Source of the DNA: Deltaproteobacteria bacterium
Lineage (GTDB): Bacteria; Desulfobacterota; Desulfuromonadia; Desulfuromonadales; Geopsychrobacteraceae
Assembly: GCA_024280335.1 (NCBI GenBank)
Contig: JAJRQI010000063.1
Location: 1-64,000 of the forward strand
Length of the DNA stretch: 64,000 nucleotides
Reading direction: 5' to 3'
Shown here in pieces: positions 12,046 through 64,000 of this stretch. The stretch's first letter is position 1, and every line of letters begins with the position of its first letter. Made by a program: the position numbers and the translations under genes. Below the pieces are notes generated by a model. It saw only the letters and a program-made list of their open reading frames with translations, was not told the DNA's origin and ran no database searches.

Positions 12046-12062
12046 CCGCAAAGGGAATAGCA

Positions 12063-12953: not shown

Positions 12954-12965
12954 TTCTGTGCTGAA

Positions 12966-15254: not shown

Positions 15255-15280
15255 TACTCCCTAAATTAAAGGAGCTTGTC

Positions 15281-16405: not shown

Positions 16406-16420
16406 ATCAGGTAAAAGAAA

Positions 16421-16460
16421 CAGCCACCATCATCGACATGAATAGCGGCGATGGTGGCTG
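16421..16460. terminator. Probable bidirectional terminator between ald and the acyl-CoA synthetase gene
   Basis: Perfect 11-bp stem CAGCCACCATC / GATGGTGGCTG with an 18-base loop, between convergent genes. There is no long T-run, so the efficiency is uncertain. Confidence 0.6.
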
Positions 16461-16510
16461 TATGTAAGTTCAAAGCGGGACAGGTTCTTCTGGCTCCGTG
16501 TCAGGTGACC

Positions 16511-18145: not shown

Positions 18146-18294
18146 AGGGAGTCTCCTGGAAAGTTTATCGATCCTGATTGAAAGATTGACGAAAGCAAAA
18201 CTATACGAAGACCGGCGGCAGATGGCAAGGGTTGATGCTTGTCTGGCAAGGGTTTGACCGCTAGAATGACGAATTCATCGTTCTGGAGGATAAA

Positions 18295-18987: not shown

Positions 18988-18989
18988 GA

Positions 18990-19070
18990 AAGTTTCCCCT
19001 CCCCTGGAGGGAGGGGATTAAGGTTACCCCCACCCCAGCCCTCCCCCCTGAAGGGGGAGGGAGTATTGAC
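18990..19070. repeat. Paired hairpins between sfsA and tmcAL
   Basis: Two palindromes, CCCCTCCCCTGGAGGGAGGGG (core CTCCCCTGGAGGGAG) and CTCCCCCCTGAAGGGGGAG, lie back to back in the 96-bp gap. They could end sfsA transcription, although neither has a T-run. Confidence 0.55.
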
Positions 19071-19083
19071 GAATCGAAATTAG

Positions 19084-20340: not shown

Positions 20341-20353
20341 TTTAACTGCTCCC
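20329..20353 (+). terminator. Intrinsic terminator overlapping the tmcAL stop
   Basis: Perfect 11-bp stem GGGAGCAGTTA / TAACTGCTCCC with a 3-base loop; the stop codon TAG lies in the stem-loop. A short T-run follows at 20364-20368. Confidence 0.7.
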
Positions 20354-20388
20354 CAGATTCAAATTTTTACGGCATTGGATTCTACCGA

Positions 20389-20519
20389 GAGCCTTTTGCA
20401 AAAGTCCGAAAATTCAATCACTCGTCATTCCCGCGCAGGCGGGAATCCAGGAGTTCTCCGGGATAGCCTAGAAACTGGATCCCCGTTTTCACGAGGATGA
20501 CGACTGTTGCAAGAGCCTC
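20389..20519. repeat. MITE-like palindromic repeat, family A copy 3
   Basis: Begins GAGCCTTTTGCAAAAGTC and ends CGACTGTTGCAAGAGCCTC, with inner palindromes CATTCCCGCGCAGGCGGGAA and GGATCCCCGTTTTCACGAGG. It lies between the convergent tmcAL and PEP-CTERM genes, four bases from the latter's stop. Confidence 0.85.
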
Positions 20520-20523
20520 CCGA

Positions 20524-22599
20524 CTAGACTTTTTTCCGTTTTCGTCCGTACCAGAACAGGCCGATTAGCCCACTGCCGAACAGCAGGATGGTGGCGGGCT
20601 CCGGAACCGGTTCGATAAATTGTTCTAAAGAAGAATAGGCGTAGTCAAAAGAAGCTCGGTTTTGCAAAGAGTTCTGATAGACGGTCAGGTCGGTCATGCC
20701 GACGAGGTCGTTGTAGAAAAACGCAAAAGACGTCCCGAGCAGATTATCAAGACCCAAGTCTGCCAAGAAAGGGACATCAGAAAGTGCAATGTACGGATTA
20801 AAGCTGCTGATTGGTCCACCACTGGTAGTGCCTCCACCAGCATCTTCCAATAAAAAGTCGAGATTGTAAAAAGATGCCACCAGGCCTGTCACTAATAAAC
20901 CAGCGTCGTCAAATAACGGCTGAAAATCAATGCCGAGGTTGTAAATACCAGTAACATCAAGCAAAAAATCAAAGTAGTTGGCATTTGCAGGGTCGTAATC
21001 CTTTAAAATTTCTAACAGTGAGTAACGGGCAAAACCATCCAGATAATCAACCCGCTCACTGTCGCCATCACTATTGTAATTGTTGGCCAGAAACCCATAA
21101 AGATCACCGTTTTCCGTGAAGAGATCTTTAGGTGCATTAGGGTCGGGTGTTGTGGCGGTATTTTCTTCTTTTTCTTTGATGATCGTGGAGAGATCATCTC
21201 TTGCATCAATACTGCTAGGTGCCACAATAAAAGTCTGATTCGTTTCATCGATAGCCTTGTCCAGCATGGAAAAGAGTTCAGAGTCGAAATTTAGCAAGAA
21301 GTTTTCCCCGGCAATATCCTGCCCAGAAATCCGCCAAGTTTCATCATAAACAGAGACGGAAGCAAGCTCCGTTTCAAAACGGTCCTCCCATAAGGAAATA
21401 TCTGTCCCCCAGGAGCTGAAACCATATCCTATATCGACACTAAGGTTACCTATTGCCAGATCGAGCCAGGCATCAATGTCTATATTTGAGTTGTTTGAGA
21501 CAGCCCATTCGAGAGAATAGGTCGTTGCAGTTCTGACCATTCGAGGGGTGATAATTTCGAGATCTGTACCTAAATCTGTTTCAATATGTGTTGTAACGAG
21601 AAATTCTCCATCTGCACCGACCCGTGCCCAGACGGGACGATCAAAGTCCAAGTGCACCTCAGGGTTCATTGTTACAGTGAAATCCTGACTGAGAGAGGCC
21701 ACTGCCCCGACCTCAGCCTGAATGAGAGAACCGCTGACGTCTAGACCAACTTCAAGAGTGTCGTTGTATAAATCGAACGAAACTTCCGTTGGCAGACCGG
21801 TAGCGTAGTTGAACGCTTTATCAACATCAAAACCGACACCTAGAATAGAATCGCTGCTGCTGTCAGAAGCAGTTAGAAGTGAGGAATTTACATCCCCTGA
21901 TAGCCCAGAGGCAGTATTAAAAGTGTCACTTGCGACAACATTTGGAATTTGCGCAGTAACATTGACAAGACCACCCAAAAGGGTTTCATTGACAGGGGCA
22001 GAATTTTGATCAATATCAATAATAGGAGTTTGGCTGAACTTTTCGTATTCAGCTTTACTACTAGAAGTACCAAACCCGGCGGCAGCTCCGACGTAATAAT
22101 TAAAAACATAGTCGGTAAGAAAGCTGACACCGAAATTTCCTTCTGTCCCCGATGTTTCGAAGCCAGCTCCAGAGAGGATTGAATAATCGGTACTGACAGT
22201 TGTTGTATAATTTTCTTTGGATGTCTGCATGTTGATATCCAGCGGAGCGTTGATATCCATGGTGCCGTAATCAAAAGCAGCTTCAGCAGTCAATCCAATT
22301 CTGCCACTGGTTGTAAAAGCGGCATAGTAGCCAAAGTCGCCCCATTCATCAGCAACGATATCGTTGTTGCCATAGGTTTTTCTGATCGGATCGTCATAAC
22401 TGCCCCACTCAACCCCCCAGAACTCATCGTCAATAATGTCGATTCGTTGACTATCACCGGGAGCCACGGTGCTGACATTATCGGCAGAAAAAGTAGCGGT
22501 GGTGTTGTAGTCGGCCGCAAGCCCTTGACCGGTGAAACAAAGGAGCATGAGGACAATGGATAAGGAAATGACGAAGTGGGGGAAACGTGGAGTTTTCAT
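20524..22599 (-). CDS. Large secreted PEP-CTERM protein
   Basis: 691 residues from the ATG at 22599, preceded by AGGAGG at good spacing. The longer frame to 22773 is rejected because it has no ribosome site and precedes a clean signal peptide (ISLSIVLMLLCFTGQGLAA, residues about 10-28). The C-terminus is a textbook PEP-CTERM sorting tag: VPEPATILLFGSGLIGLFWY followed by GRKRKKV. Such tags are cleaved by exosortase, giving surface or extracellular-polymer-linked proteins. The long middle (about 30-660) is rich in N, D, S and T and beta-prone, with no domain I recognise. No exosortase is in the window. It lies alone; function unknown. Confidence 0.88.
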   Translation of the reverse strand: MKTPRFPHFVISLSIVLMLLCFTGQGLAADYNTTATFSADNVSTVAPGDSQRIDIIDDEFWGVEWGSYDDPIRKTYGNNDIVADEWGDFGYYAAFTTSGRIGLTAEAAFDYGTMDINAPLDINMQTSKENYTTTVSTDYSILSGAGFETSGTEGNFGVSFLTDYVFNYYVGAAAGFGTSSSKAEYEKFSQTPIIDIDQNSAPVNETLLGGLVNVTAQIPNVVASDTFNTASGLSGDVNSSLLTASDSSSDSILGVGFDVDKAFNYATGLPTEVSFDLYNDTLEVGLDVSGSLIQAEVGAVASLSQDFTVTMNPEVHLDFDRPVWARVGADGEFLVTTHIETDLGTDLEIITPRMVRTATTYSLEWAVSNNSNIDIDAWLDLAIGNLSVDIGYGFSSWGTDISLWEDRFETELASVSVYDETWRISGQDIAGENFLLNFDSELFSMLDKAIDETNQTFIVAPSSIDARDDLSTIIKEKEENTATTPDPNAPKDLFTENGDLYGFLANNYNSDGDSERVDYLDGFARYSLLEILKDYDPANANYFDFLLDVTGIYNLGIDFQPLFDDAGLLVTGLVASFYNLDFLLEDAGGGTTSGGPISSFNPYIALSDVPFLADLGLDNLLGTSFAFFYNDLVGMTDLTVYQNSLQNRASFDYAYSSLEQFIEPVPEPATILLFGSGLIGLFWYGRKRKKV

Positions 22600-22932
22600 G
22601 GGGCAGCCTCCTGTATTGGTAGGTTGCAACAACGAAACATATAAAAACGAAACAAGAACCGAGAAGTTTTTGTGGAGGGATCTTATCCAAGTAAACGATA
22701 TTGAAAGGAAGGTTGAACCAGAACTACTCATTAAAGCAAGAAGCATTCCTTCAAGATAACTTGCTGAAATCATATCTTGATTTTATTTTATGAGTGTCGC
22801 CGTGGGTGGTTTGTAAGAATTCTCGACAAGAATAGTGGAAGATTGAATTGTGAATAAAATATGTAATAAAAGGCAGTGCCGCTGTCGCACCGCCTTTTAT
22901 TACAAGCTTGATCTGGTGAGAATGGTTCCGTA
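22600..22932. other. Intergenic region upstream of the PEP-CTERM gene
   Basis: AT-rich. I looked for a sigma-54 site reading left (GCA-N8-GTGCCA on this strand) because some PEP-CTERM genes use one, and found none. It contains only the terminator of the LemA/TPM operon near its right end. Confidence 0.5.
22868..22898 (-). terminator. Terminator of the LemA-TPM operon
   Basis: 12-bp stem AAAAGGCAGTGC / GCACCGCCTTTT with one mismatch and a 7-base loop, 35 bp beyond the last stop; the minus strand continues TTTTATTAC. Confidence 0.75.
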
Positions 22933-51446: not shown

Positions 51447-52322
51447 ATGACCAAGTTGATGACTGTTGCCGAACTGATGAAAGAAAAACAGGCTGAAATA
51501 CTTGAAGTATGGCTTGAGGTGATCGACAGTGAAACGGGTGCGGGTGCCCGGCGTACCGATCTGTTGATGAGCAAGGCAGAGCTGCGCACCGAGGCAAAAG
51601 GACTGGCCGATGCCTTGACGTTGGCCTTTGCCGCTGAAGATTACACTGATCTGGCTGCGCCGCAGTTTCAACCTGCGGTCCTTCTGTTGCGTGAAATCAG
51701 CGCTTCGCGCGCCCGTCAGGGCTTCAACCCGACCGAAACCGCGAGCTTTGTCATGTCGCTCAAATCCGCCCTGCTGCAGTTCATGCAGCAGGAGTTTAAG
51801 GGTGATCAGCAGCATCTGAACAATGAAATGACCAAGATGAACGTCATCATCGATCGGCTGGCGATGGTGACCTTTGAGACCTATGCCATCACCCGCGAAG
51901 AGGTGATAACCGAGCAGAGCCGTTCGCTGCTGGAGATGTCGACCCCGGTAATCAAACTGTGGGACGGCGTGGTTTTGATGCCGCTGGTGGGAGTGATCGA
52001 TACCCCGCGTTCCCAGCAGATCATCGCCAGCCTGCTCAAGGGCATCGTCGATTATCAGGCACAGGTGGCGGTGCTCGATGTGACCGGCGTGCCGATGATG
52101 GATACCAAGGTTGCCCAGCACCTGATCAGTGCGGTCGATGCTTCGCGCATGCTCGGTGCCGAAGTGGTGCTGACCGGCATCTCCGCCGATGCGGCGCAGA
52201 CCCTGGTGCGGTTGAGTGTCGACCTGTCCGGTATGCGCACTTCAGGTTTGCTCAAAAACGGGATCAAGGAGGCCTTGAGCATTATTGGTATGGCAATCAC
52301 CAGTAAGGACAGAGCATCATGA
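51447..52322 (+). CDS. RsbR-type stressosome protein (RsbRD-N plus STAS)
   Basis: 291 residues. The N-terminal helical sensor (about 1-150; KEKQAEILEVWLEVIDSETG, NPTETASFVMSLKSALLQFM) resembles RsbRD_N. The C-terminal STAS domain (about 170-285) has VIDTPRSQQIIASLL and LDVTGVPMMDTKVAQHL; the two Thr sites (in VIDT and MMDT) correspond to the RsbT-phosphorylated Thr residues of RsbR. It builds the stressosome shell with RsbS and sequesters RsbT. First gene of a six-gene operon with overlapping ends. Confidence 0.92.
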   Translation: MTKLMTVAELMKEKQAEILEVWLEVIDSETGAGARRTDLLMSKAELRTEAKGLADALTLAFAAEDYTDLAAPQFQPAVLLLREISASRARQGFNPTETASFVMSLKSALLQFMQQEFKGDQQHLNNEMTKMNVIIDRLAMVTFETYAITREEVITEQSRSLLEMSTPVIKLWDGVVLMPLVGVIDTPRSQQIIASLLKGIVDYQAQVAVLDVTGVPMMDTKVAQHLISAVDASRMLGAEVVLTGISADAAQTLVRLSVDLSGMRTSGLLKNGIKEALSIIGMAITSKDRAS

Positions 52323-52705
52323 AGATCGCCATCATGAAGCTGGGGGGAATACTGATCACTGCATTGCCGCTCGATCTGATCGATGAGGATGCGATGGAGT
52401 TTCAGGGTGACCTGCTCAATGAAATCAATGCTCACGATGCCAAAGGCGTGATTATCGATATTTCAGCCCTCGATCTGGTTGATTCATTTATGGCGAGGAT
52501 CATCAATGATTCCGCCACTATGGCCGGACTGCTCGGTGCCGAGGTGGTAGTCTGTGGCATGCAGCCGCAAATCGGGACCACTTTGATTGAAATGGGCCGC
52601 GAACTGCTTGGCGTAGAAACCGCTCTCAACCTTGATCTGGCGATGGCAAGGATACTCGCCAAGGTCAAGGCTGAGGACATGGAGCAAGCCGATGACGGAA
52701 CTTAA
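52319..52705 (+). CDS. rsbS: RsbS-type STAS-domain antagonist
   Basis: 128 residues, one STAS domain: LGGILITALPLDLIDEDAM, VIIDISALDLVDSFMARI (Ser in DSF is the RsbT target), LLGAEVVVCGMQP, GRELLGVETALNLD. Overlaps the rsbR-like gene by 4 bp. It should be the core scaffold that holds RsbT until phosphorylated. Confidence 0.93.
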   Translation: MKIAIMKLGGILITALPLDLIDEDAMEFQGDLLNEINAHDAKGVIIDISALDLVDSFMARIINDSATMAGLLGAEVVVCGMQPQIGTTLIEMGRELLGVETALNLDLAMARILAKVKAEDMEQADDGT

Positions 52706-53108
52706 AAACACCCAGCTGGCGATCAGCTCGCAGACCGATGTCATTGTTTGCCGCCAAAAGGCGAGAGAGGCGGCGGTTACGATGGGCTTCGGCCTGGCCG
52801 ACCAGACGCGACTGGCCACGGCGGTCTCCGAGCTGGTCCGTAATGCCTTAAGGCATGGCGGTGGCGGAAACTGTTTGATTCGTGACCTCGAGGAAAAAGT
52901 TCAATACGGCATTGAAATTTTGATTGAGGACGATGGCCCCGGTATCGCTGATATCGATCAGGCGCTGGAGGATGGTTATTCGACCGACAAGAGTCTGGGG
53001 TTGGGATTGCCCGCTGCCAAACGTCTGGTTCACGTGCTGCACATAGATTCGCAACCGGGCCGAACTTGCATCAGCATAAAGATGTATCTGCAGAAAAAGG
53101 CTGCTTGA
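52692..53108 (+). CDS. rsbT: RsbT-type serine/threonine kinase
   Basis: 138 residues of the GHKL fold: TRLATAVSELVRNALRHGGG (N box), EDDGPGIADIDQAL (G1), GLGLPAAKRLVH (G2). It phosphorylates RsbR and RsbS and, when released, activates the downstream partner. It starts inside the rsbS gene (14-bp overlap). Confidence 0.92.
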   Translation: MTELKNTQLAISSQTDVIVCRQKAREAAVTMGFGLADQTRLATAVSELVRNALRHGGGGNCLIRDLEEKVQYGIEILIEDDGPGIADIDQALEDGYSTDKSLGLGLPAAKRLVHVLHIDSQPGRTCISIKMYLQKKAA

Positions 53109-53590
53109 TGGCCGGCGCCAAATTAACGACATGCCCGGATCCTGAGGATTGCTTCCGCCGGCCAAGCTGCTTACCGGTGACTGACGAGCATCATGTGCAG
53201 ATTGTCCGCCGTCATGCCCTGCAGTGCACCGCGCAGCTTGGCATGTCCCGCCTCAGTTCTCATTATGTAGCTACCGCGGTCTCCGAGTTGGCCAACAACC
53301 TCTTTTTCCACACCAGCAACGGCGGTGAGATCCGGTTTTGCTGCCTGGACAAAGCGGGCAGAGTCGGCATTGAAATCATCGCCCAGGACGAAGGCCCCGG
53401 CATCGTGGATATTGCTGCGGCAATGACCGATGGTTTTTCGACCAATGGCGGCCTCGGTGCCGGCCTCGGCGGGGTACGACGCCTTATGGATGAGTTTGAG
53501 ATCAGCTCTAAGCCAGGTATCGGTACGCGCATTATCGCTCGAAAATGGCTGACGGAGGCCGAGCTATGCTGCGACCGCAAATCTCACTGA
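53108..53590 (+). CDS. Second RsbT/anti-sigma-type GHKL kinase
   Basis: 160 residues, overlapping the rsbT stop by one base (TGATG). HYVATAVSELANNLFFHTSN (N box), QDEGPGIVDIAAAM (G1) and GAGLGGVRRLMDEF (G2) mark it as an RsbT/RsbW-like ATPase. It differs from the first copy by a Cys-rich N-terminus (CPDPEDCFRRPSCLP). RsbT-RsbT'-RsbX orders are known in non-Firmicute stressosome loci, where the second copy may bind the phosphatase or another target. Confidence 0.88.
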   Translation: MAGAKLTTCPDPEDCFRRPSCLPVTDEHHVQIVRRHALQCTAQLGMSRLSSHYVATAVSELANNLFFHTSNGGEIRFCCLDKAGRVGIEIIAQDEGPGIVDIAAAMTDGFSTNGGLGAGLGGVRRLMDEFEISSKPGIGTRIIARKWLTEAELCCDRKSH

Positions 53591-54171
53591 ACAGGCGCGC
53601 CTATCCCGGCGAGGCCGATTGCGGTGATCAGCTCGACTGGTGGCAAGACGGCAAGCGGCTGTGCTGCTGCGTGGTTGACGGCCTGGGTCACGGTCCGCTC
53701 GCTAAAGTTGCGGGCTGTGAAATCCTGCAGTTCGTTGGCAGGCAACGTGCGGTATCACCCGAATCGCTGTTTACGACTTGCGATAAAGCGATGAACAAAG
53801 AGCGTGGTGGCGTAATGGCCGTCGCTTGGATTGAAGGCGATCAGCTGACCTATGCCTCGGTCGGTAATATCGCAGGCTACCTGGTGCATGTGGATGTCGA
53901 ACAGGAGACGCACCGGCTCGAACAGCTCAATATGGATCGCGGCATGATCGGCGGTGGTTTCAAAAGACTGACGGTGCAAAAGCTGACTCTAACTGCGGGT
54001 GATCTGTTGATCATGCATAGCGACGGGGTGAACCCGCTCTACAATCTGGAACCCTGGCAACCGGTAATCGATAACTGTGAAATGCTCGGCAGGGTCATCC
54101 TGGAAGATCAGGCCAAGCAGACCGATGACGCCTGTGTGCTGGTCTATCATCATCAAAGGGTGAAACCATGA
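53566..54171 (+). CDS. RsbX/SpoIIE-type PP2C phosphatase
   Basis: 201 residues; ATG at 53566 inside the previous gene, with GGAGG upstream. PP2C-like SpoIIE motifs: AYPGEADCGDQ, CCCVVDGLGHGPLAK (DGxGHG), VMAVAWIEGDQLTYASVGNI, LIMHSDGV and KQTDDACVLVY. It should dephosphorylate RsbR and RsbS and reset the stressosome. Confidence 0.9.
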   Translation: MLRPQISLNRRAYPGEADCGDQLDWWQDGKRLCCCVVDGLGHGPLAKVAGCEILQFVGRQRAVSPESLFTTCDKAMNKERGGVMAVAWIEGDQLTYASVGNIAGYLVHVDVEQETHRLEQLNMDRGMIGGGFKRLTVQKLTLTAGDLLIMHSDGVNPLYNLEPWQPVIDNCEMLGRVILEDQAKQTDDACVLVYHHQRVKP

Positions 54172-54653
54172 GTGCTGAAAAAAACCAGTTGTCCGACCTG
54201 TACACGCAACTTCTCCTGGAATACGTAAAAAACCTGGAAGAAGCCCCGCTCGCAGCTCTTGAAGCCCTGGGTGAGAAAATGATCGCTGCAGACATGCCGA
54301 ATGAGGAGGTCGGTGAAATCCATGACTGCGCCATGGCCAGACTGCTGGAAGCTGAAGATTTCAGTGCTGAAAAAATTCGCGCTGCATCACAGCCGCTGAT
54401 GCAGTTGCTCATTGTCTACAGTATTGCGGCGTATCGAGTGACAAACGCCAAGAAAAAAGCTGATCAGGAACTGGAAAAATACCGCAATCATCTGGAAGAG
54501 CGGGTTCGGGAGCGGACCGAAGAACTGCATAAGACCGTCAACCTGATGGCCGGGCGCGAGGTACGGATGGCGGAACTGAAAAAAGTGATTAAACAATTGT
54601 GCGCACAACTCGAAGATGCCGGGCTGGTTCCGGTGGCCGATGGCCATCAGTAA
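54168..54653 (+). CDS. RsbU-N-like protein ending in a signalling coiled coil
   Basis: 161 residues. The N-terminal about 85 residues resemble the RsbT-binding domain of RsbU (LYTQLLLEYVKNLEEAPLAA, LEALGEKMIAADMPNEEVGE, HDCAMARLLEA). Then comes a charged coiled coil (KYRNHLEERVRERTEELHKT, GREVRMAELKKVIKQL) of the kind that precedes a histidine kinase core, but no kinase or phosphatase follows in frame. It is therefore a possible link between released RsbT and a separate two-component kinase. Overlaps the phosphatase gene by 4 bp. Last gene of the operon. Confidence 0.82.
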   Translation: MSAEKNQLSDLYTQLLLEYVKNLEEAPLAALEALGEKMIAADMPNEEVGEIHDCAMARLLEAEDFSAEKIRAASQPLMQLLIVYSIAAYRVTNAKKKADQELEKYRNHLEERVRERTEELHKTVNLMAGREVRMAELKKVIKQLCAQLEDAGLVPVADGHQ

Positions 54654-54856
54654 ACAGGTTTCGGGCTCACTAAAAAGTGCCTCGATAATCAAACATTTCC
54701 CATCACTAGTGTCGGATAAAAGAAGTAAATCCATCTGGTTAGAGATTGGCGGCTCTGGCTTCCCAATTCCGTAATTACCTTAGAATGGCGCTAGTTTAAG
54801 GCCCTCTAGCATGGGGAAGCAGCTGAAAATATTGGCTTGAAATGGCATAATTGGCC

Positions 54857-55281
54857 ATGAAAAATACAACGCCAATGCTTCCAGGATTTCACTTGCAGAC
54901 CTTGCGTCGAAAGCCCCGTTCTGCCCAGCAGAAACTTGCAGGAAAAATGGCTTTGTTGAAACAAAAGTCCTTCAAGCAGATCGGCAAGGTCTTGGAAAAG
55001 TTCATCCCCAGTTCTCTTCTCAAGCATGAACCTGAAGGTGAAGAGCTATCTGGGCACCTCACGCAACGGCGTGATGATTCAACTCTGGATTGCCCGTGCG
55101 CCTATCTGGTGCTGGCGTTTTGAAGTTTCAGTCGAAAATTGGGCACTCCATGCAGCAAATGTTGCGGTTATTACAGTTAACTCTGTTTGAACGGCGCGAT
55201 TTCATGGAGTTATTTGCGCCGCCAGGCAGTTGTCGCTCATTTGAAACTACGGGACAGCAGTGGTATAGTTTTTATTCTTGA
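54857..55281 (+). pseudogene. IS4-family transposase remnant with internal deletion and frameshift
   Basis: The first about 55 residues (PGFHLQTLRRKPRSAQQKLA, FKQIGKVLEKFIPSSLL) look like the N-terminus of a DUF4372-type IS4 transposase. They jump directly to the C-terminal conserved stretch in another frame (NLKVKSYLGTSRNGVMIQLW), and after a further frame change KFQSKIGHSMQQML and LFERRDFMEL close the protein. Most of the catalytic core is gone. The remnant occupies the gap between the stressosome operon and the hybrid kinase gene. Confidence 0.75.
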
Positions 55282-55297
55282 TTGCAACTTATTAACC

Positions 55298-55442
55298 AAT
55301 TAGTACGAATCTTCAGCTAGTCCTTCTCCATGTGGGAGAAGGTGGCCGAAGGCCGGATGAGGGGGGCTTTTCGAACGTTTCCCCTGCCCCTGCCCTCTCC
55401 CACAGAGAAGATCTTACCACGTAGCTGAAGATTCGTGTTGAT
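55298..55442. repeat. Palindromic repeat, family B copy 2
   Basis: The ends are AATTAGTACGAATCTTCAGCTAG on the left (core ACGAATCTTCAGCTA) and TAGCTGAAGATTCGTGTTGAT on the right (core TAGCTGAAGATTCGT), a perfect 15-bp inverted pair. The interior hairpin CCTTCTCCATGTGGGAGAAGG is like that of 10478-10564. It ends 21 bp before the hybrid kinase gene. Confidence 0.8.
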
Positions 55443-55463
55443 AAGGATAGATTAGGACCATAG

Positions 55464-58175
55464 ATGGCAGAACCTCTGAATATCCTTCACCTTGAAGATA
55501 ATCCCAATGATGCTGAACTGGTGCGTTACGCTCTTGACAAGGCAAAGATCGTCTGTCGTATCGAGTGGGTTTCGGGAGAACAGGAGTTTCTACGTGCTCT
55601 CGACGAACAGAGTTTCGATATTGTCTTGGCTGACTATTCTCTCCCTGATTACGATGGTTTAGCTGCACTGGTTGAGGTGCAGCAGCGTGACCTTTTGATC
55701 CCCTTCGTTCTGGTGACCGGCGCCTTGGGTGAGGAACGAGCAATTGAAAGCATCAAGGCGGGGGTTACCGATTATATCCTGAAAACCAATTTGCTTCGCT
55801 TACAAACAGCTGTTCCGCGAGCGATCGAAGCCGCTCGTGAAAATTTGCAGAAAAAGCTGACCTTGGAAGCCCTGCGGTTAAGCGAAGAACGCTTTGATCT
55901 GGCGGTTCGTGGCTCGGGGGCTGGAATCTGGGATTGGGGCGATGTCTCAAGCGGTCAGATGTGGTGGTCTCCGCGGATCTATGAAATCCTTGGATTTGAA
56001 GATGGGGAAATCCCGGCAACCAGAGACCAGTTGTATGAAATGATTCACCCGGATGATGTCGGCACTTCCCGACGGGCAATGCAGAGCCATTTTATCGAAC
56101 ATAAACCCTATGATGTCGAATTTCGCTTGAAGCATAAGCTTGGACATTATATCTGGATACGCTCGCGCGGACAGGCGCTTGTTGATGCGGAAGGTAGGCC
56201 GACCCGCATGGCTGGTTATGTTCAGGACATCAGCGATCGAAAACTGGCTCAGAAGGCGTTGCGGGCAAGGGAAAAAGATTTGTTGCGTGCCCAACAGGTC
56301 GGGCATGTCGGATCCTGGTATCTGGATATCGATATGGACTGTCTACGCTGGACGGATGAGACCTATCGTATTTTTGGTTTCGAGAACCATGAAGATTTTG
56401 GCGGAACAATAGAGGCATTTCTGGGCAGGGTGCATCCGGATGATCGGGAGCGGGTTGAACAAGCTTGGAATGCCGCTTTGGCGGGGCAGACCTACGATAT
56501 AGAACATAGAATTCTGTTGCCGGATGGTGAAATCAGGCATGTTCGAGAAATGGCAGAAATCGAGTTTGATGACAAGTCACAGCCTGTCAGGGTGATCGGT
56601 GTCGTGCATGACCATACCGAGCAGCGGCGAGTTGAGGAGGAAAAGCGCAAGGCCGATGAAATCTACCAGATTATTTCTACGACTGCCCAAGAGGCGTTCG
56701 TGATGATCAACGCGGCCGGCTTGGTGACGTTCTGGAATCCGGCGGCAGAAACGATTTTTGGTTACAGCGAACATGAGACCCTTGGACAAGAGATTCATCA
56801 GCTACTTGCCCCGGAAAACATTCGTCCGTTTGCCATGAAAGCTCTGAGGATGTTCGCTTTGACCGGGGAAGGGGCGATGCTCGGAAAAATAATGGAAGTT
56901 GAAGGGCGGACCAAACAAGGGGAATTGATCCCACTGGAGGTTTCCCTGAGCGGGATTTATCATGACGGTGAATGGCAGGCGATCGGCGTGCTGCGTGATA
57001 TTTCTGAGCGTAAAGATGCAGAGGCTGAACGGCAGGCGTTGGAACAGCAGTTACGCCAGGCGCAAAAAATGGAAGCTATTGGCACCCTGGCTGGTGGGAT
57101 TGCCCATGATTTCAATAATATCCTGGCAGCAATTCTGGGTTATGCTTCGATGGTCGAGCGACGGTTGCAGGTGAATAGCAGGGAACGGCAAGATCTGCAG
57201 GAGGTACTCAAGGCTGCGGAGCGAGCCAAACAACTGGTCCGTCAGATTCTCACTTTCAGCCGCAGGAGTAGTTTGGAGAAGGAACCGGTTTACCTGGATC
57301 TGGTGATCAAGGAGGTTTTGCACTTGCTGCGTGCGTCGCTGCCCGCGACCATTAATGTCGTCACTCGCCTGCAGGTAGAAGGAGAGACAATTCTCGGTGA
57401 TGCAACACAGGTTCATCAGGTTTTGATGAACCTCTGCACAAACGCCTACCACGCTATGCCGAAGGGGGGAACCTTGACCATTGAGCTTGCTAATAAGTTG
57501 CTCGATGAAGGAAACCTCTGTGGACTTCGTTCTGGATGCTATTTGGAACTCGTGGTTTCTGATACAGGAACCGGGATCAATCCAGAGATTATGGATCAGA
57601 TTTTTGATCCCTACTTTACTACTAAAGATGTGGATAGCGGAACCGGCCTTGGTTTGTCGGTGGTCCGTGGTATTGTTGCCGGGCTGGGTGGCGAGGTTCG
57701 GGTGCAGAGCAGTTTGGGAGAAGGAACCCGCTTCTGCCTGTTGTTCCCTAGTGTTCAACCGCAGGGACAGGCGAAACAAATGGAGGGGACAACTGCCGAC
57801 GTCGGTGGGTCTGAACGTATCCTGATCGTTGACGATGAAGTCAGCCTGGCGCAGCTTGGTAAGGAGTTTCTTGAGGACCTTGGTTACCGGGTAGCCTGCC
57901 AAACCAGCAGTTTGGGGGCCTTGCAGCAAGTGAAAACGGCACCGCAGGCATTTGACCTGGTGATCACGGATCAGACCATGCCACAAATGACCGGGATTGA
58001 ACTGGCAAAACAGTTAAAAATTATAGCTCCGGATCTGCCGGTGATCCTCTGCTCCGGGTTGCATTATTCTCTTGATTCCGAAGGGGTGTCTGAGACGGCC
58101 ATTTGTGAAGTGTTACTGAAAACGGAGTTGCTAGATCGTGTACCACAATTAATTAGGGAGATTTTTGACCAGTGA
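55464..58175 (+). CDS. Hybrid histidine kinase: REC-PAS-PAS-PAS-kinase-REC, cytoplasmic
   Basis: 903 residues, no membrane segment. REC1 (5-125) is of the Rcp1-like type (LHLEDNPNDAELVRYAL, VLADYSLPDYDG). There are three PAS domains (about 140-260, 265-390, 400-520; WWSPRIYEILGFEDGEIPAT, LRWTDETYRIFGFENHEDFG, VTFWNPAAETIFGYSEHETL), H-box AIGTLAGGIAHDFNNILAAI, ATPase (GTGLGLSVVRGIVAGLGG) and REC2 (about 785-900; ILIVDDEVSLAQLGKEFLED, VITDQTMPQMTG). It overlaps the following REC-kinase gene by 4 bp. PAS ligands unknown. Confidence 0.93.
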   Translation: MAEPLNILHLEDNPNDAELVRYALDKAKIVCRIEWVSGEQEFLRALDEQSFDIVLADYSLPDYDGLAALVEVQQRDLLIPFVLVTGALGEERAIESIKAGVTDYILKTNLLRLQTAVPRAIEAARENLQKKLTLEALRLSEERFDLAVRGSGAGIWDWGDVSSGQMWWSPRIYEILGFEDGEIPATRDQLYEMIHPDDVGTSRRAMQSHFIEHKPYDVEFRLKHKLGHYIWIRSRGQALVDAEGRPTRMAGYVQDISDRKLAQKALRAREKDLLRAQQVGHVGSWYLDIDMDCLRWTDETYRIFGFENHEDFGGTIEAFLGRVHPDDRERVEQAWNAALAGQTYDIEHRILLPDGEIRHVREMAEIEFDDKSQPVRVIGVVHDHTEQRRVEEEKRKADEIYQIISTTAQEAFVMINAAGLVTFWNPAAETIFGYSEHETLGQEIHQLLAPENIRPFAMKALRMFALTGEGAMLGKIMEVEGRTKQGELIPLEVSLSGIYHDGEWQAIGVLRDISERKDAEAERQALEQQLRQAQKMEAIGTLAGGIAHDFNNILAAILGYASMVERRLQVNSRERQDLQEVLKAAERAKQLVRQILTFSRRSSLEKEPVYLDLVIKEVLHLLRASLPATINVVTRLQVEGETILGDATQVHQVLMNLCTNAYHAMPKGGTLTIELANKLLDEGNLCGLRSGCYLELVVSDTGTGINPEIMDQIFDPYFTTKDVDSGTGLGLSVVRGIVAGLGGEVRVQSSLGEGTRFCLLFPSVQPQGQAKQMEGTTADVGGSERILIVDDEVSLAQLGKEFLEDLGYRVACQTSSLGALQQVKTAPQAFDLVITDQTMPQMTGIELAKQLKIIAPDLPVILCSGLHYSLDSEGVSETAICEVLLKTELLDRVPQLIREIFDQ

Positions 58176-59428
58176 CAGAACTGAAGAAGAAAATCTTGGT
58201 GGTTGATGATGAACTCTCTATCTGTCGTCTGCTGAAGAGAATATTGATCGAAAATAATTATGCGTGTGACTACGCACTAAGCGCTGCGGAGGCACTGCAA
58301 AAAATAGCCGCAGTGTCCTTTGATCTGGTGGTGACCGATATCAAGATGCCGGAGATGGATGGGTTGCAGTTGATCGAGAAGTTGCGCGTGCAGTTTCCGG
58401 AGTTGGCGATCCTCGTATCCACTGGGGTGAATGAACGAGAGGTCGCTCTTAAAGCGTTGGAACTGGGTGCCTACGGTTATATGCTCAAGCCATGTGATGA
58501 CTTTGAAGTGATGATTCATGTAGCAACGTCCCTGCGTCGTGCAGAGCTGGAAAAAATCAGTCGCTCTTACCGACAGGAATTGGAATCCCAGGTCGCCGAG
58601 CGGACAGCTTCACTTGAAGCGGCGAACCGGACCCTGGAAGAAACCAATCGGTTACTGCGGCAGCAGGAGAAACTGGCATCGATCGGACAATTGGCTGCCG
58701 GGATCGCCCATGAAATAAAAACGCCGACCGGTTTTATTGCCAGTAATCTGGGAAGTTTGAAGAAATATCAGGAACGCTTGCTTGAGTATATTGCTGTGCA
58801 AAAACAGATGCTGGATGAATCCGGTTCAAAGGAGCAGCAGGCAGAACTTAAATCCTTTGCCCGTAAGTTGAAAATCGAGATGATTCTCGATGATGCAGTC
58901 GAACTGGTGGAGAATTGCCTGGATGGGACTGGTCGGATCAATGCAATTATCCATGGTTTAAAGGATTTTTCCCGTCAGGACCAGATCGAAGCGGATATCC
59001 TTGATCTGAATAAGGTGATCGAGGACAGTTTGCTGCTCGTTCGTAATGAATTGAAATACAAAACAGAAGTGCAGACCGAGCTGACTGAAATTCCAAAGTT
59101 CCTTGGTTATCAACAGCGCCTCGGTCAGGTATTTATCAACCTTCTGGTCAATGCTGCCCACGCAATCAAGAAACAGGGAGTCATCACGGTGTCGACCCAT
59201 GTGGAAAATAACGAGGTCATTGCCACGGTTACCGACGATGGTTGCGGGATTCCGGAAGGAAATCTGCAAAAAATTTTTGAACCCTTTTATACCACCAAAG
59301 AAATCGGCGTCGGTACAGGATTGGGCTTGAGCATTATTAAGGATATTATTGATCAGCATCAAGGGGGGATCGCTGTGGAGAGTACGGTCGGCAAAGGGAC
59401 GACCTTCACCCTTCGCTTTCCAATCTAA
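58172..59428 (+). CDS. REC-histidine kinase
   Basis: 418 residues from a GTG overlapping the previous stop. REC (1-120; ILVVDDELSICRLLKRILIE, VVTDIKMPEMDG, LKPCDDFEVM) is joined by a coiled coil to a kinase core, H-box [21 protein letters not shown] box NLLVNAAHAI, G2 GVGTGLGLSII. The core is related to those of the 34338-39866 kinases but HEINNP reads HEIKTP. With REC at the N-terminus it is a relay element, likely fed by the hybrid kinase. A strong terminator follows. Confidence 0.93.
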   Translation: MTELKKKILVVDDELSICRLLKRILIENNYACDYALSAAEALQKIAAVSFDLVVTDIKMPEMDGLQLIEKLRVQFPELAILVSTGVNEREVALKALELGAYGYMLKPCDDFEVMIHVATSLRRAELEKISRSYRQELESQVAERTASLEAANRTLEETNRLLRQQEKLASIGQLAAGIAHEIKTPTGFIASNLGSLKKYQERLLEYIAVQKQMLDESGSKEQQAELKSFARKLKIEMILDDAVELVENCLDGTGRINAIIHGLKDFSRQDQIEADILDLNKVIEDSLLLVRNELKYKTEVQTELTEIPKFLGYQQRLGQVFINLLVNAAHAIKKQGVITVSTHVENNEVIATVTDDGCGIPEGNLQKIFEPFYTTKEIGVGTGLGLSIIKDIIDQHQGGIAVESTVGKGTTFTLRFPI

Positions 59429-59463
59429 AAAAATTGATTTCAGCGATATGAAGTCAGCATTTC

Positions 59464-59496
59464 AGGGCAACATCTAACGATGTTGCCCTTTTTCTT
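59464..59496 (+). terminator. Intrinsic terminator of the signalling block
   Basis: Perfect 11-bp stem AGGGCAACATC / GATGTTGCCCT, four-base loop, followed by TTTTTCTT. Confidence 0.92.
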
Positions 59497-59558
59497 GGAT
59501 CGGATAATTCAGGATTAAATTTAAGTTTTCAGCAGGTTCTCTCTGGGCGTCCATTTCT

Positions 59559-60173
59559 TCAGCCGAAAGTCGGCCAAAATATGGTTTTCAATAGTGCTGC
59601 CGCGGTAAACGTGGAAGAGGACAGCTGTCGCTGGAGCTGTTGAAGTTGCATCCAGTCGATGACCTGCAAGGCTCCGGTAGGACATTCGCGTAAACAGGCC
59701 CGGTTCGTGAAATCACCACAGCCGTCACACTTTACGGCCTGCTTGCGGCTGGATGCGCTGCGGTTTTTTAGGTGTTTCTGCAGTGTGGCGGGGAGGCAGG
59801 CGATGGCGGCAAAGGGGCAGGCCGGCACGCAGCGGCCACAGCCGACACAGTGTTCGTTTGCCACTTGTGGGCTGCTTTGCCCCGGCTGTATCGCCTGTTG
59901 CGGACAGCTCTCTTCGCAGGCCGGGTGTGCGCAGCCCTGGCAGACCGGCATGATGGCATGTTTGTCTGTACTGTCGGTAGTAAGCGGCAGGCTGCGCCAG
60001 CGTCGCTCTGCGTGTCGGCGTTCACAGGCCAGCTAGCAGGCTCCGCATTCCAGACAACGTTTCAAGTCCCGGATCATGATTTGTCGACAACGGTTCACGA
60101 TTAACCGTTCGCTGACCCCGCTTTTTGCGGAGAGCACTTCTTGATCAGAGGCGCTGGTAGCAAGGTGTTCCAT
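59559..60173 (-). pseudogene. 4Fe-4S ferredoxin-like electron transfer protein interrupted by one in-frame TAG
   Basis: Read from the ATG at 60173 (AAGGA six to seven bases upstream) to 59559, the frame is 204 codons with a single TAG at codon 47 (60035-60033). On both sides the protein is intact. Cluster motifs: CLECGAC-TAG-LACE before and through the stop, then CQGCAHPACEESCP, CVGCGRCVPACP and CDGCGDFTNRACLRECP. This is the four-cluster pattern of CooF/HycB/NrfC-type subunits. The TAG occupies a variable position in the first CxxCxxCx3C motif. Either a recent nonsense mutation or read-through; the ORF from the internal ATG at 59951 would lack the first cluster. It is the last gene of the multiheme cytochrome cluster. 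Confidence 0.8.
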
Positions 60174-60217
60174 CTGTCATCCTTGGGTTGTTACCTGGGT
60201 GATAATTGACTGCTCCT

Positions 60218-60257
60218 GCACCTCCTTTGATTCAATTTATATGCCAATAGGAGGTGC
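60218..60257. repeat. Inverted repeat between the diheme cytochrome and ferredoxin genes
   Basis: Perfect 9-bp arms GCACCTCCT / AGGAGGTGC with a 22-base loop in the 112-bp intergenic gap. It could attenuate expression of the ferredoxin gene; no T-run on either strand. Confidence 0.5.
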
Positions 60258-60285
60258 CAGAAGGTTGTTGCAGGAGAAGTTTTCG

Positions 60286-61191
60286 TCAGTGAAATTGGGG
60301 GGCAAACAGAAGAACCACAGCGATATGCAGATTCAAGAACAGCAGAAACCCGATGCTGAGTCCGGTGTGGACGGCGGTCCAGAACGGGGCGCTGGTTTCG
60401 TAGATATTCAGCAGCAGCAGATTTCGCTGTAGAATCAAGTGTTTGCTGAAGGCCTCCGGCGGCGCCCTGAAGTGGCCGGGGCTGTCGAGCTCTCCACTGA
60501 ATTGTGCCGGGCTATGTTTGCACCGCCGCTTGTCCGGCAACGGGTACCCCTTCTGGGTCGCCCGCTTAAGCACCCAGAGAATCTGTAAATCCCGAAAAAA
60601 GTAGCGTACCATCTGCTCCACCTGCGGTGGCTGATCGAGTGGGTCTTCCTGCAGAATCTGTTGCAGGCGCTGCCGTTGAGCACGGCTTAAAAAGAACAGC
60701 GCGGCAGTGTGATTCCAATCGTAACGGGCGTTAAGCTCTTCGAGCAGTCGCAGCCGCCGGGTGCGGGCGACCGCGCAACGGGTAGCGAGAAAGCGGGCCA
60801 GGAAGCCGCTGATAACGGTGGCCCACAGCGCCAGATTAACCAGCCCCTTGATGCCGAGCAGCTGGCTGTGGGCGTGACCGATGAGCAGCAGCGGCCCGAG
60901 GGTTCCGAGAAGGATATGCAGGTTGAGCCAGTAGCGCTTCGGTCCGGAACCCTGCAGAGGTGGTAACCGCTTGCGAAGAACGTAGAGCAGTATCGACAGC
61001 AGGCAGAGCAGTGTGCCGACGATTCCCAGCAGCAGGCCGGTCCCTTTGCCGGGGAGCAGCGGCCCCAGCAGTCCCGTCAGTAAAAACCAACCCTCAACGG
61101 CCGGGGATGGTATGGCGTCAGTTCCTGCCCATGGAATGAAAACGGACGTTCTGCCAGGTATCGGTGAAATGGCATTTGGCGCAGGGTTCAT
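60286..61191 (-). CDS. Diheme b-type membrane cytochrome
   Basis: Up to 301 residues with at least four membrane helices. Two helices each carry two His with 13 residues between: HILLGTLGPLLLIGH and HTGLSIGFLLFLNLH. That is the bis-His pattern of a diheme b cytochrome. A hydrophilic loop of about 130 residues (LEELNARYDWNHTAALFFLS to KHLILQRN) separates the pairs. The start is uncertain: the ATG at 61191 has no ribosome site and overlaps the multiheme gene by 74 bp, and no better start is seen before the first helix. It should pass electrons between the quinone pool and the periplasmic multiheme cytochrome. Not a recognised named family. Confidence 0.75.
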   Translation of the reverse strand: MNPAPNAISPIPGRTSVFIPWAGTDAIPSPAVEGWFLLTGLLGPLLPGKGTGLLLGIVGTLLCLLSILLYVLRKRLPPLQGSGPKRYWLNLHILLGTLGPLLLIGHAHSQLLGIKGLVNLALWATVISGFLARFLATRCAVARTRRLRLLEELNARYDWNHTAALFFLSRAQRQRLQQILQEDPLDQPPQVEQMVRYFFRDLQILWVLKRATQKGYPLPDKRRCKHSPAQFSGELDSPGHFRAPPEAFSKHLILQRNLLLLNIYETSAPFWTAVHTGLSIGFLLFLNLHIAVVLLFAPQFH

Positions 61192-63334
61192 GACCGTGCA
61201 GATGCGGCACGGTGTGATCAGGCATGTCGCCGTCGGGGTGCGGGTGTCCGGGGTGCAGCGGTCTGGGGTGGCAGCCGCTGCAACGGCTGGCGTTCAGGTC
61301 GTAACGATTGCCGCCGACATGGCAGGCATTGCAGCGCATGGCGTTGTTGTGCGGCCCGGCCAGCAGGTAAAAGGGGTGGTTGTAGCGCGCCCCCTGCCAG
61401 GCCGAGGTATTGTGGCATTGTCGGCAGTCGCCGTTGATCCCGGCGTTTGGATGGCTGGGATTGCGGCTGCGGCGCAGGTCGTCGTTATGGCAACTTTCGC
61501 AGTCGATCGGGGTGTTACGGTAGTTGCGTCCGGGGTGGCAGCCCCGGCAGTTTGTGCTGCGATGGCGACCGTCAAGGATAAACCCGGCGCTGATGTGGCG
61601 GAAGGTCGGCGGCAGCCAGCCGCTCGGGGCATGACAGCGGTCACAGTTGCGAGAACCGAACTGGTTGCGATGGGGATCCCGATGACAGGAGGTGCAGTCG
61701 CTGTTGAGGCGGACCAGCCGGTCGTCGCGATGGCACTGGTTGCAGGTCAGGCGGGCGTGGCGTCCTTCCAGCGGAAAAGGCCCCTCGCTGTGGCTGCTCA
61801 AGTCGAGATCCCAGCCGCGCGGATTGTGGCAGCGGATGCAGTCGGCGCCCCGCAGTCCTGAATGTGGATCCAGATGGCAGTCGGCGCAGCCTTGACTGGC
61901 CCTGCCGCGAAAGCGTCCCTCGCTGTGGCAGGCATTGCAGTCGGCTTCTAGGTGGTCGCCTTCGAGCTGAAATTTGGCCCGCTCATGCTTAAAACGATCG
62001 GGACTCCAGCTGCCTGCGGCACTGTGGCAGTCAGCACAGGGGGTGGCGGCGAACTGCCCCTGATGTGGTTCCAGATGGCAATCGGCGCAGCCTTGATTTG
62101 ATCTGCCGCGAAAGCGCCCATCGCTGTGGCAATCGCTGCAGTCGGTCTCTTTATGGGCGCCTTCAAGCTTAAATTTTGCCCGCTCATGCTTGAAAAGATC
62201 CGGCGTCCAGCTGCCGGCGGCGCTGTGACAGTCGGCACAGGGGGTGGCGGCGAACTGCCCCTGGTGCGGCTGCTGATGGCAATCGGCGCAGCCTTGATTT
62301 GATCTGCCGCGAAAGCGCCCATCGCTGTGACAATCGCTGCAGTCGGCCTCTTTATGGGCGCCTTCAAGCTTAAATTTGGCCCGCTCATGCTTAAAACGAT
62401 CTGGCCTCCAGCTACCGGCGGCACTGTGGCAGTCAGCACAGGGGGTGGCGGCGAACTGCCCCTGATGCGGCTGCTGATGGCAATCGGCGCAGCCTTGATT
62501 TGATCTGCCGCGAAAGCGCCCATCGTTGTGGCAATCGCTGCAGTCGGCCTCTTTATGGGCGCCTTCGAGCTGGAATTTTGCCCGCTCATGCTTGAAACGA
62601 TCGGGCGTCCAGCTGCCGGCTGCACTGTGGCAGTCGGCGCAGGGGGTGGCGGCGAACTGTCCCTGATGCGGCGGCTGGTGACAGTCGGCGCAGCCCTGCT
62701 TGGCCCGACCGCGAAAGCGTCCCTCGCCATGACAATCGCTGCAGTCAGCTTCGCTGTGGGCGCCTTCAAGCTTAAATTTTGCCCGCTCATGCTTGAAGCG
62801 ATCCGGCGTCCAGCTGCCGGCTGCACTGTGGCAGTCGGCGCAGGGGGTGGCGGCGAACTGCCCCTGATGCGGCGGCTGATGGCAGAAAACGCAATCGGTT
62901 TGCTGTTGCAGATAGCTGCGCTCACGGTGGCAGCTGTTGCATTGCAGAGCGGCATGTGCTCCGTCCAGCGGAAAGCCGGTGCGCTGATGGCGGAAAACCT
63001 CCGGTTTCAGCAGTTCGCGCGGGACGATGTCGAACTTTCGTCCGGCATGATCGGGGTGGCAGGCAAAGCATTTTTTCTCGAGTTGGGCGTGATAACCCAG
63101 GTTCTGTTCAGTTCGGGTCCGAAGCTGCTTGTGGCAATCGAGACAGAGACGGTCAGGGACTCCGCCGCCGATGCTGTGACACTTGAGGCAGTCGCTGTCG
63201 TACCGGGCATGCAGCGCGGTCAGGGGACCGGGGCTGGCCAGCAGCGAAAGCGATTCAGGAACAGCCGCCTGAATTTCACCCGACAGGGCCGGCAGCAGCA
63301 GGATAATCAGCAGGATCAGTCGTTTGATCATCAA
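61118..63334 (-). CDS. 30-heme c-type cytochrome with five tandem triheme modules
   Basis: 738 residues. A signal peptide (LILLIILLLPALSGEIQA) is followed by 30 CxxCH motifs that I counted one by one. Residues 148-482 are five tandem copies of a 67-residue triheme unit (CADCHQQPHQGQFAATPCAD, GSWTPDRFKHERAKFKLEG, CSDCHSDGRFRGRSNQG); two to three diverged units follow. FxHxxxxFxLxGxH before the third heme gives candidate distal His ligands. The repeat layout suggests an extended wire. Secreted, periplasmic or surface-exposed. Neighbours (a beta-barrel C-terminus, a CxxC protein, a diheme b cytochrome, a ferredoxin) point to a transmembrane electron conduit. Confidence 0.95.
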   Translation of the reverse strand: MMIKRLILLIILLLPALSGEIQAAVPESLSLLASPGPLTALHARYDSDCLKCHSIGGGVPDRLCLDCHKQLRTRTEQNLGYHAQLEKKCFACHPDHAGRKFDIVPRELLKPEVFRHQRTGFPLDGAHAALQCNSCHRERSYLQQQTDCVFCHQPPHQGQFAATPCADCHSAAGSWTPDRFKHERAKFKLEGAHSEADCSDCHGEGRFRGRAKQGCADCHQPPHQGQFAATPCADCHSAAGSWTPDRFKHERAKFQLEGAHKEADCSDCHNDGRFRGRSNQGCADCHQQPHQGQFAATPCADCHSAAGSWRPDRFKHERAKFKLEGAHKEADCSDCHSDGRFRGRSNQGCADCHQQPHQGQFAATPCADCHSAAGSWTPDLFKHERAKFKLEGAHKETDCSDCHSDGRFRGRSNQGCADCHLEPHQGQFAATPCADCHSAAGSWSPDRFKHERAKFQLEGDHLEADCNACHSEGRFRGRASQGCADCHLDPHSGLRGADCIRCHNPRGWDLDLSSHSEGPFPLEGRHARLTCNQCHRDDRLVRLNSDCTSCHRDPHRNQFGSRNCDRCHAPSGWLPPTFRHISAGFILDGRHRSTNCRGCHPGRNYRNTPIDCESCHNDDLRRSRNPSHPNAGINGDCRQCHNTSAWQGARYNHPFYLLAGPHNNAMRCNACHVGGNRYDLNASRCSGCHPRPLHPGHPHPDGDMPDHTVPHLHGHEPCAKCHFTDTWQNVRFHSMGRN
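61889..62893. repeat. Five tandem 201-bp repeats inside the 30-heme cytochrome gene
   Basis: GGGGGTGGCGGCGAACTG recurs at 201-bp steps near 62040, 62240, 62442, 62643 and 62845. The copies are highly similar at DNA level, as expected for recent amplification or homogenisation by recombination. The unit equals 67 codons, so copy-number change keeps the frame. Confidence 0.95.
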
Positions 63335-63357
63335 TTCTATCCGTTCTTCGCTTGATT

Positions 63358-63915
63358 TCAGGGTGCGGACCAGATCAGCGGCACGCCGTGATAGGGGCAG
63401 AACAGGTAACTGTCCGGAAACTTGGCCTGATCCAGCGGGCAGCTGCGGACTTGGCCGATCGATTTTTCGAAGCGGATTTTAATGATATCGCGGAGCTTGA
63501 TCTTCTGCTCTTTGAGGGTTTGACCGGTGTCGGGCAGGGTGTAGCTCAGCGATCCCCGATCGAAGTAGGCGTCGCTCAGCATGCGGACTTCACCGTTTCT
63601 GAGCAGCAGGGTCAGTATGCCGGTTTGCGGCACATACTTGGAATGTTGATAGACGTAATTGACCTCGCTCGTCAACAGGTTCAGTTCCAATGCTTCGCCG
63701 ACCGGAATACTGACCGTTTTCTCGGCCTCGCGGCCGACAATCAGATCATCCTTGCGCAGTGGCTGCAGAAAGCGCGTCACGTTGAACTGACGACCGTCCC
63801 GGGTGTAGATCGTGCCGCCGACATAACTGCGCGCCGCGGCTGTGCCGGGAACCCAGACGAGAAGCAGGCTTACCACCAGAAGGTAGCTCATTCGTATCAA
63901 GTGATATTGCGGCAT
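63358..63915 (-). CDS. Secreted protein with C-terminal paired-Cys motif, unknown function
   Basis: 185 residues; ATG at 63915 with GGAGG upstream. Signal peptide (YLLVVSLLLVWVPGTAAA). The middle is beta-rich with no family I recognise (GGTIYTRDGRQFNVTRFLQP, GILTLLLRNGEVRML). The C-terminus CPLDQAKFPDSYLFCPYHGV resembles half of a zinc ribbon, or a heme-less Cys site. It lies 23 bp before the 30-heme gene and 12 bp after the beta-barrel gene, so all share an operon; a structural or assembly role in the conduit is a guess. Confidence 0.75.
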   Translation of the reverse strand: MPQYHLIRMSYLLVVSLLLVWVPGTAAARSYVGGTIYTRDGRQFNVTRFLQPLRKDDLIVGREAEKTVSIPVGEALELNLLTSEVNYVYQHSKYVPQTGILTLLLRNGEVRMLSDAYFDRGSLSYTLPDTGQTLKEQKIKLRDIIKIRFEKSIGQVRSCPLDQAKFPDSYLFCPYHGVPLIWSAP

Positions 63916-63927
63916 AAAGACCTCCGG

Positions 63928-64000
63928 TTAAAAGCGGTACGCGAGAAAGAGCGAAAAATTATGGCCGTCGGCCCGGTCCGGGGTTGAAGTCGGATCGCCG
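63928..64000 (-). CDS. C-terminal end of a probable outer-membrane beta-barrel protein (partial)
   Basis: The minus-strand frame enters from the window edge and ends GDPTSTPDRADGHNFSLFLA then YRF-stop at 63928-63930. Alternating hydrophobic residues with a terminal aromatic Phe are the signature of the last strand of outer-membrane barrels recognised by BamA. Only 23 residues are visible, so the identity (porin of an electron conduit or other) cannot be fixed. Confidence 0.6.
   Translation of the reverse strand, partial: GDPTSTPDRADGHNFSLFLAYRF

Follow-up and report, generated by a model that had tools for sequence, protein, structure and literature searches.

The Hmc complex of sulfate reducers combines a large periplasmic multiheme cytochrome with a membrane b cytochrome and a polyferredoxin; it has 16 hemes and no outer-membrane barrel. 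Structures of HmcA are 1h29 and 1gws. GSU1996-type cytochromes contain 12 hemes in tandem c7-like triheme modules, and 3ov0 is the structure of a triheme 'nanowire' cytochrome of this type. PCC3 is a putative porin-cytochrome conduit (He et al. 2017, PMC5566968), which also features in a Gallionellaceae pangenome from 2023 (PMC10734462). Its periplasmic cytochrome has a median of 21 hemes, and its inner-membrane protein bears two WX3HX13H motifs (PMC5566968). In Gallionellaceae, versions of the cytochrome with 21, 24 and 27 hemes occur (PMC10734462). He et al. proposed that the inner-membrane protein exchanges electrons with quinones. Two H-x13-H helices also occur in quinone-reactive b cytochromes (PMC5566968). 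A literature search returned no paper naming PCC3 together with a term beginning with Desulfuromon.

The window, i.e., the whole stretch of DNA analysed here, comprises 64,000 nucleotides (C71:1-64000) of an 81,720-bp contig that is part of a 3.59-Mb genome. The five genes at its end are genuine and make up a single operon on the minus strand. Their order is outer-membrane barrel, 185-aa secreted protein, 30-heme cytochrome, diheme b cytochrome and ferredoxin. They are spaced by 12, 23, -74 (an overlap) and 112 bp, the largest gap lying before the ferredoxin. An earlier note on this DNA had described a run in a single direction with small gaps, which is borne out. Its gene set, hemes and barrel end also stand, while the CxxC motif of the secreted protein, the extent of the ferredoxin and the start of the b cytochrome need correction. 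The operon is best read as a trans-envelope electron conduit, given that both its 30-heme cytochrome and its diheme b cytochrome have homologues among the PCC3 parts. More specifically, we find it reasonably likely that the operon is a rare hybrid variant of the PCC3-type conduit. Its GC content is mildly high (59.6% vs 54.1% for the contig). A NUDIX/ubiE pair borders it on one side and two kinases on the other. The kinase gene next to the operon is convergent with it, and an inverted repeat of 11 pairs (59464..59489, unstranded, listed on the plus strand with a T-rich tail) lies between the two; by this tail, it resembles a terminator of the kinase gene. The count of such sites in the region was not above that of shuffled sequences.

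The five-gene order recurs at a different chromosomal site in a second genome of the same genus, G082 (L016 4480-10313), and this conservation makes it more than chance. The first four proteins are 58-78% identical to their G082 counterparts. The earlier note had proposed a check of the gene order across Desulfuromonadales; among 136 genomes of the order, it was found again in G082 only. Close homologues of the b cytochrome, the 185-aa protein and the barrel were likewise limited to these two genomes (2/136), and the barrel was found in only 2 of 277 class genomes. A profile of the 185-aa protein matched nothing besides the window's genome among 395 phylum genomes, and the barrel had no match in plasmids. 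The operon is absent from eight other genus members searched. Where the NUDIX region of genus mates was read, it does not contain the operon; in G078, for instance, the NUDIX and kinase homologues lie a few kb apart with no operon between them. The patchy presence and the different locations suggest that the operon moved between sites. No mobile element was identified with it. The dN/dS ratios against G082 are 0.13 for the cytochrome, 0.24 for the barrel, 0.26 for the 185-aa protein, 0.28 for the b cytochrome and 0.40, the highest of the five, for the part of the ferredoxin after its stop codon; selection is thus measured on one pair, since only two genomes carry the operon.

The cytochrome gene (61118..63334, minus strand) has 738 codons and encodes 67 His, a signal-peptide-like N-terminus and exactly 30 CxxCH motifs, the number claimed earlier. 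As the ORF opens with TTG-ATG, translation probably begins at the ATG at 63331. An HMM built from 13 PCC3-type sequences, with the window's cytochrome left out, matches the protein with an E of 8.7e-151; shuffled controls in the PCC3-type HMM searches gave E values of about 1 or worse. The cytochrome keeps all 21 PCC3 CxxCH motifs, which do not vary across 15 aligned sequences, and the distal His, whose columns are conserved. By these comparisons, the protein is homologous to the periplasmic cytochrome of PCC3, with 21 ancestral and nine added hemes (21+9). The surplus corresponds to three extra 67-aa triheme modules, which arose by tandem duplication. Indeed, a tandem array with a 201-bp unit in 5.0 copies (61873..62884, minus strand) encodes five such modules, where G082 has two. 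The modules are 81-94% identical within the window's cytochrome and 74-80% identical to those of G082, whose own pair is 91% identical; copies are more alike within each genome than between the two. The arrays of five and two modules imply that the heme wire grows in triheme steps. A 24-heme version is found at the loci L024 and L044. In the PDB, the cytochrome profile finds wire-like or multiheme relatives (3ov0, 1z1n), the best being 3ov0 with an E of 3.3e-07. The DmsE-family decaheme model TIGR03508 reached only 28.1 bits, against a cut-off of 192.2. The earlier note had counted a soluble, periplasmic 30-heme protein against a conduit. Homology predicts exactly such a protein, yet this is compatible with a wire spanning the periplasm. 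No further multiheme ORF is present in the window from 52000 to 64000 or in C71:64000-80000, so that an extracellular cytochrome is not encoded nearby.

In G069, the 21-heme gene (L021:7332-9071) is divided into open frames of 7 and 14 hemes by a stop that may be genuine or an assembly error. The window's own genome holds, on contig C57 (L071:3107-14626), a single 3839-aa ORF with 24 CxxCH motifs, the N-terminus of which resembles that of a 1247-aa, 35-heme ORF on C72 (L072:5286-9029).

The b cytochrome ORF (60286..61191, minus strand) encodes 301 aa with the motifs YW-x3-H92-x13-H106 and W271-x3-H275-x13-H289. The four His do not vary across 10 aligned members of the family, in line with the diheme protein with two H-x13-H helices that had been claimed. 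An HMM of the PCC3 inner-membrane protein, built without the window's sequence, matches it with an E of 4.9e-27, and by this profile the two are homologous. The SGXXG motif of the fourth PCC3 transmembrane helix (TM4) is missing; the residues read S128-G129-F-L-A in the window and SGLLA in G082. Together with its G082 homologue, the protein forms a separate clade (100/99) outside the PCC3 group; the exact position of this clade in the tree is unsure because of long branches. The AlphaFold model is moderate (mean pLDDT 75). It places the His in helices 85-107 and 245-300 and predicts four to five long helices with uncertain boundaries, the PCC3 protein having five transmembrane helices. A Foldseek search with this model gave no match at E<=0.001. 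The VIA-align rows include Dcytb (5zle; Z 8.9, 3.2 A over 124) and the QFR C chain (2bs4; Z 7.1), both with a Z within the helical-bundle background.

Such diheme b proteins and the helix pair that is common among quinone-reactive b cytochromes (PMC5566968) would fit a quinol oxidase, as He et al. saw the PCC3 protein. The wire would then drain the menaquinone pool, and the ferredoxin would serve another enzyme. The ferredoxin gene, preceded by the largest gap of the operon (112 bp) and broken in the window's genome, also agrees with this explanation. We nonetheless consider it rather unlikely, as the neighbours of the b-cytochrome family argue against it. Related b cytochromes were gathered from the order and from named genomes of Alpha-, Beta- and Gammaproteobacteria, Bacteroidota and Myxococcota; their neighbourhoods were HMM-scored and duplicate contigs counted once, which gave 26 loci in three classes. 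The PCC3-type loci (21-24-heme cytochrome), which pair their cytochrome with a barrel too, include a FeS + pyridine-nucleotide-oxidoreductase flavoprotein of ~437 aa in 17 of 20 cases, and two of the three loci without it are cut by a contig end. All four heptaheme-type loci contain a ~640-aa FAD/NAD/2Fe-2S protein, with a 7-heme cytochrome where read, and both window-type loci the four-cluster ferredoxin. A cytoplasm-facing FeS or flavin protein, of one of three kinds, thus adjoins the b cytochrome in 23/26 loci. This synteny suggests a cytoplasmic electron partner and not quinol alone. The b-cytochrome family may exchange electrons directly with ferredoxin or NAD(P)H, instead of or besides quinone. 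In the earlier note, the conduit spanned the quinone pool, the periplasm and the outer membrane. The conduit is supported by the PCC3 homology; the quinone-pool end is unproven, the recurrent neighbour being a cytoplasm-facing FeS or flavin protein, with the ferredoxin interrupted here. A wider generalization is speculative: the diheme b family could be a common inner-membrane adaptor. On its cytoplasmic side, one of several exchangeable donors would dock (polyferredoxin, FeS-thioredoxin-reductase-like flavoprotein, FAD/2Fe-2S reductase); on the other, triheme-repeat cytochromes that can vary in length would lead on to unrelated outer-membrane barrels, and such modular wires would bypass the quinone pool. 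The operon in the window would be the ferredoxin version.

Several related clusters were encountered. On contig C35 (about 7981-22931; L017/L051), the window's own genome carries a complete PCC3 set with flavoprotein, ankyrin, b cytochrome, AMIN-like protein, an 847-aa porin and cytochromes of 21, 12 and 49 hemes. With the window's operon and this complete set, the PCC3-type core extends to Desulfuromonadales-type genomes. The same genome (C69:33440-37203, L018) and the loci L025, L035 and L048 show a second cluster type, spanning several phyla, with a ~640-aa FAD/NAD + 2Fe-2S protein, a short diheme b cytochrome and a 7-heme cytochrome. In Ulvibacter antarcticus (L038, Bacteroidota), a PCC3-like set consists of a b cytochrome, a flavoprotein and cytochromes of 23 and 22 hemes, after which comes a 549-aa protein. 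At L023, L046 and L047, a near-identical PCC3-type sequence is binned as both Methylococcaceae MnB_9 and Desulfuromonas MnB_14; hence, one of the two bins is probably wrong.

The ferredoxin gene (59559..60173, minus strand) has 204 codons and encodes a four-cluster protein of the HydN/AegA-N-terminus/DmsB-like family, with an in-frame TAG at codon 47. In the first 4Fe-4S motif, three Cys precede the TAG and the fourth follows it (RCLECGAC-stop-LACERRH). The 130 aa that had been taken for a ferredoxin-like protein (listed ORF 59559-59951) are only the 3' part of this gene. In G082, the ORF is intact (204 aa), with GAA (Glu) at the TAG site, four Cys motifs and no signal peptide, so that the ferredoxin is probably cytoplasmic. 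PF13247 scored 18.8 bits, below its cut-off of 26.2, and was not listed for the intact G082 protein; the HmcB model gave 33 bits against a cut-off of 420. Readthrough of the TAG as pyrrolysine was ruled out, the PylS model reaching 20.6 bits against a cut-off of 178 and G082 having Glu. Since no pyrrolysine synthetase scored above the cut-off, the TAG is either a nonsense codon or a wrong base.

The b cytochrome also has an atypical start. In G082, the gene opens with an ATG right behind the stop of the cytochrome gene; the aligned codon in the window's genome is ATA, and the listed ATG sits 74 bp inside the cytochrome gene, which leaves no clean start. Due to these two defects, the inner end may be impaired in the window's genome, or another donor (another ferredoxin, quinol) may feed the conduit. 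A more drastic explanation is a decaying operon: the window's genome would be losing the conduit, and what is left of it (cytochrome, barrel and small protein) would no longer be supplied with electrons. The nonsense codon, with no pyrrolysine synthetase above the cut-off, the loss of the ATG, the high dN/dS of the ferredoxin, the absence of the operon from the eight genus members and the separate complete PCC3 cluster on C35 all fit decay. However, the three upstream ORFs are intact, and the cytochrome, at the low dN/dS given above, has lengthened its array in frame without losing a heme. Furthermore, AUA or an upstream ATG could start the b cytochrome, and a single-base assembly error is possible. 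Decay is therefore doubtful in our judgement.

Only the last 73 bp of the barrel gene (63928..64000, minus strand) are inside the window. Beyond 64000, where the earlier note advised looking for the identity of the barrel, the gene continues to a complete ORF of 569 aa (C71:63928-65637), which confirms the claimed barrel end. Its C-terminus, NFSLFLAYRF, has hydrophobic residues at -1, -3, -5, -7 and -9, as in an outer-membrane beta-signal, and the protein is 58% identical to the G082 barrel. A barrel is predicted from this signal, the composition and low-confidence predicted strands. The AF2 model from two sequences (pLDDT 31.7) is too poor for a strand count, and a crude strand count was not above that of shuffled sequences. 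The protein does not belong to a known porin-cytochrome family by sequence: it matched nothing above the cut-off in Pfam, MtrB/PioB included, and a comparison with seven PCC3 porins, a sequence test only, gave an hhalign probability of 0.5% and an hmmsearch E of 0.16. A PCC3 porin and MtrB are ruled out on these grounds, and the role of the barrel stays an inference. The barrel N-terminus (C71:65300-65637) is basic, with a hydrophobic stretch ending in NWC and a Pro-rich linker of ~110 residues before the barrel. It has no clear signal-peptidase or lipobox site, and the anchor looks uncleaved. This N-terminal architecture, the missing homology to conduit porins (PCC3, MtrB and others) and the operon's lack of a surface cytochrome would suit a transport or surface protein unrelated to electron transfer, with the cytochrome as a periplasmic electron store. 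Such a role is improbable, as the barrel-first order is kept in both genomes despite their different sites and PCC3 clusters also join this cytochrome to a barrel.

Next to the barrel, the 185-aa protein (63358..63915, minus strand; 76% identical in G082) has a signal-peptide-like N-terminus and CP-x12-CP near the C-terminus. The earlier note had called it a secreted CxxC protein. The N-terminus agrees with secretion, but the only Cys are Cys159 and Cys173 (C-x13-C), and there is no CxxC. No match was found in Pfam or NCBIfam. A weak orphan relative in G123 has neither Cys nor cytochrome neighbours.

In the hybrid PCC3-type conduit that we favour, the cytoplasmic four-cluster ferredoxin would reduce the diheme b cytochrome in the inner membrane, which would pass electrons to the 30-heme, wire-like cytochrome crossing the periplasm. 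The dedicated outer-membrane barrel, presumably holding the cytochrome, would lead them to the outside, and the 185-aa secreted protein would be an accessory. With reduced ferredoxin as the donor, outward seems the more likely direction of electron flow. PCC3 is a candidate conduit of wide occurrence, and its core of b cytochrome and long cytochrome is joined here to another barrel and another inner carrier. Moreover, its heme wire grows by whole triheme steps, from 21 to 30. The nearly constant cytoplasm-facing FeS or flavin partner of the b-cytochrome family makes the question of quinol versus a cytoplasmic carrier addressable on the purified b cytochrome.

No named conduit with exactly this gene set was known to the earlier note; a close named relative does exist in PCC3 and, by gene content, in PCC4. 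Like PCC3, the operon has a homologous periplasmic multiheme cytochrome, a homologous diheme b protein of ~300 aa and a barrel in the cluster. In contrast to PCC3, it has 30 hemes (three extra modules), a barrel without detectable homology, no extracellular giant cytochrome, and a polyferredoxin and the 185-aa secreted protein instead of flavoprotein and ankyrin genes; its b cytochrome reads SGFLA for SGXXG and forms its own clade. As in PCC4, a barrel, a periplasmic cytochrome and an inner-membrane protein occur without an extracellular cytochrome. An Fe-S gene adjoins the inner-membrane gene; in PCC4 subgroup II, such a neighbour is present too and belongs to PF13247 (PMC5566968), a model for which the window's ferredoxin scored below the cut-off. 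However, PCC4 has three small cytochromes (4, 5 and 10 hemes; PMC5566968) in place of one 30-heme protein, and its inner-membrane protein shows no overall homology to the PCC3 one, of which the window's protein is a homologue. Strictly, the operon is therefore neither PCC3 nor PCC4, as its porin and one tested motif differ and no extracellular cytochrome accompanies it. MtrAB, MtoAB and PioAB do not apply either, with TIGR03508 below its cut-off and no MtrB/PioB Pfam match for the barrel. GSU1996-type cytochromes have no operon partners of this kind, but their tandem c7-like triheme modules are common to the window's cytochrome. The Hmc complex consists of the same three kinds of part as the inner portion of the operon, i.e., multiheme cytochrome, b cytochrome and polyferredoxin, with weak profile similarity.
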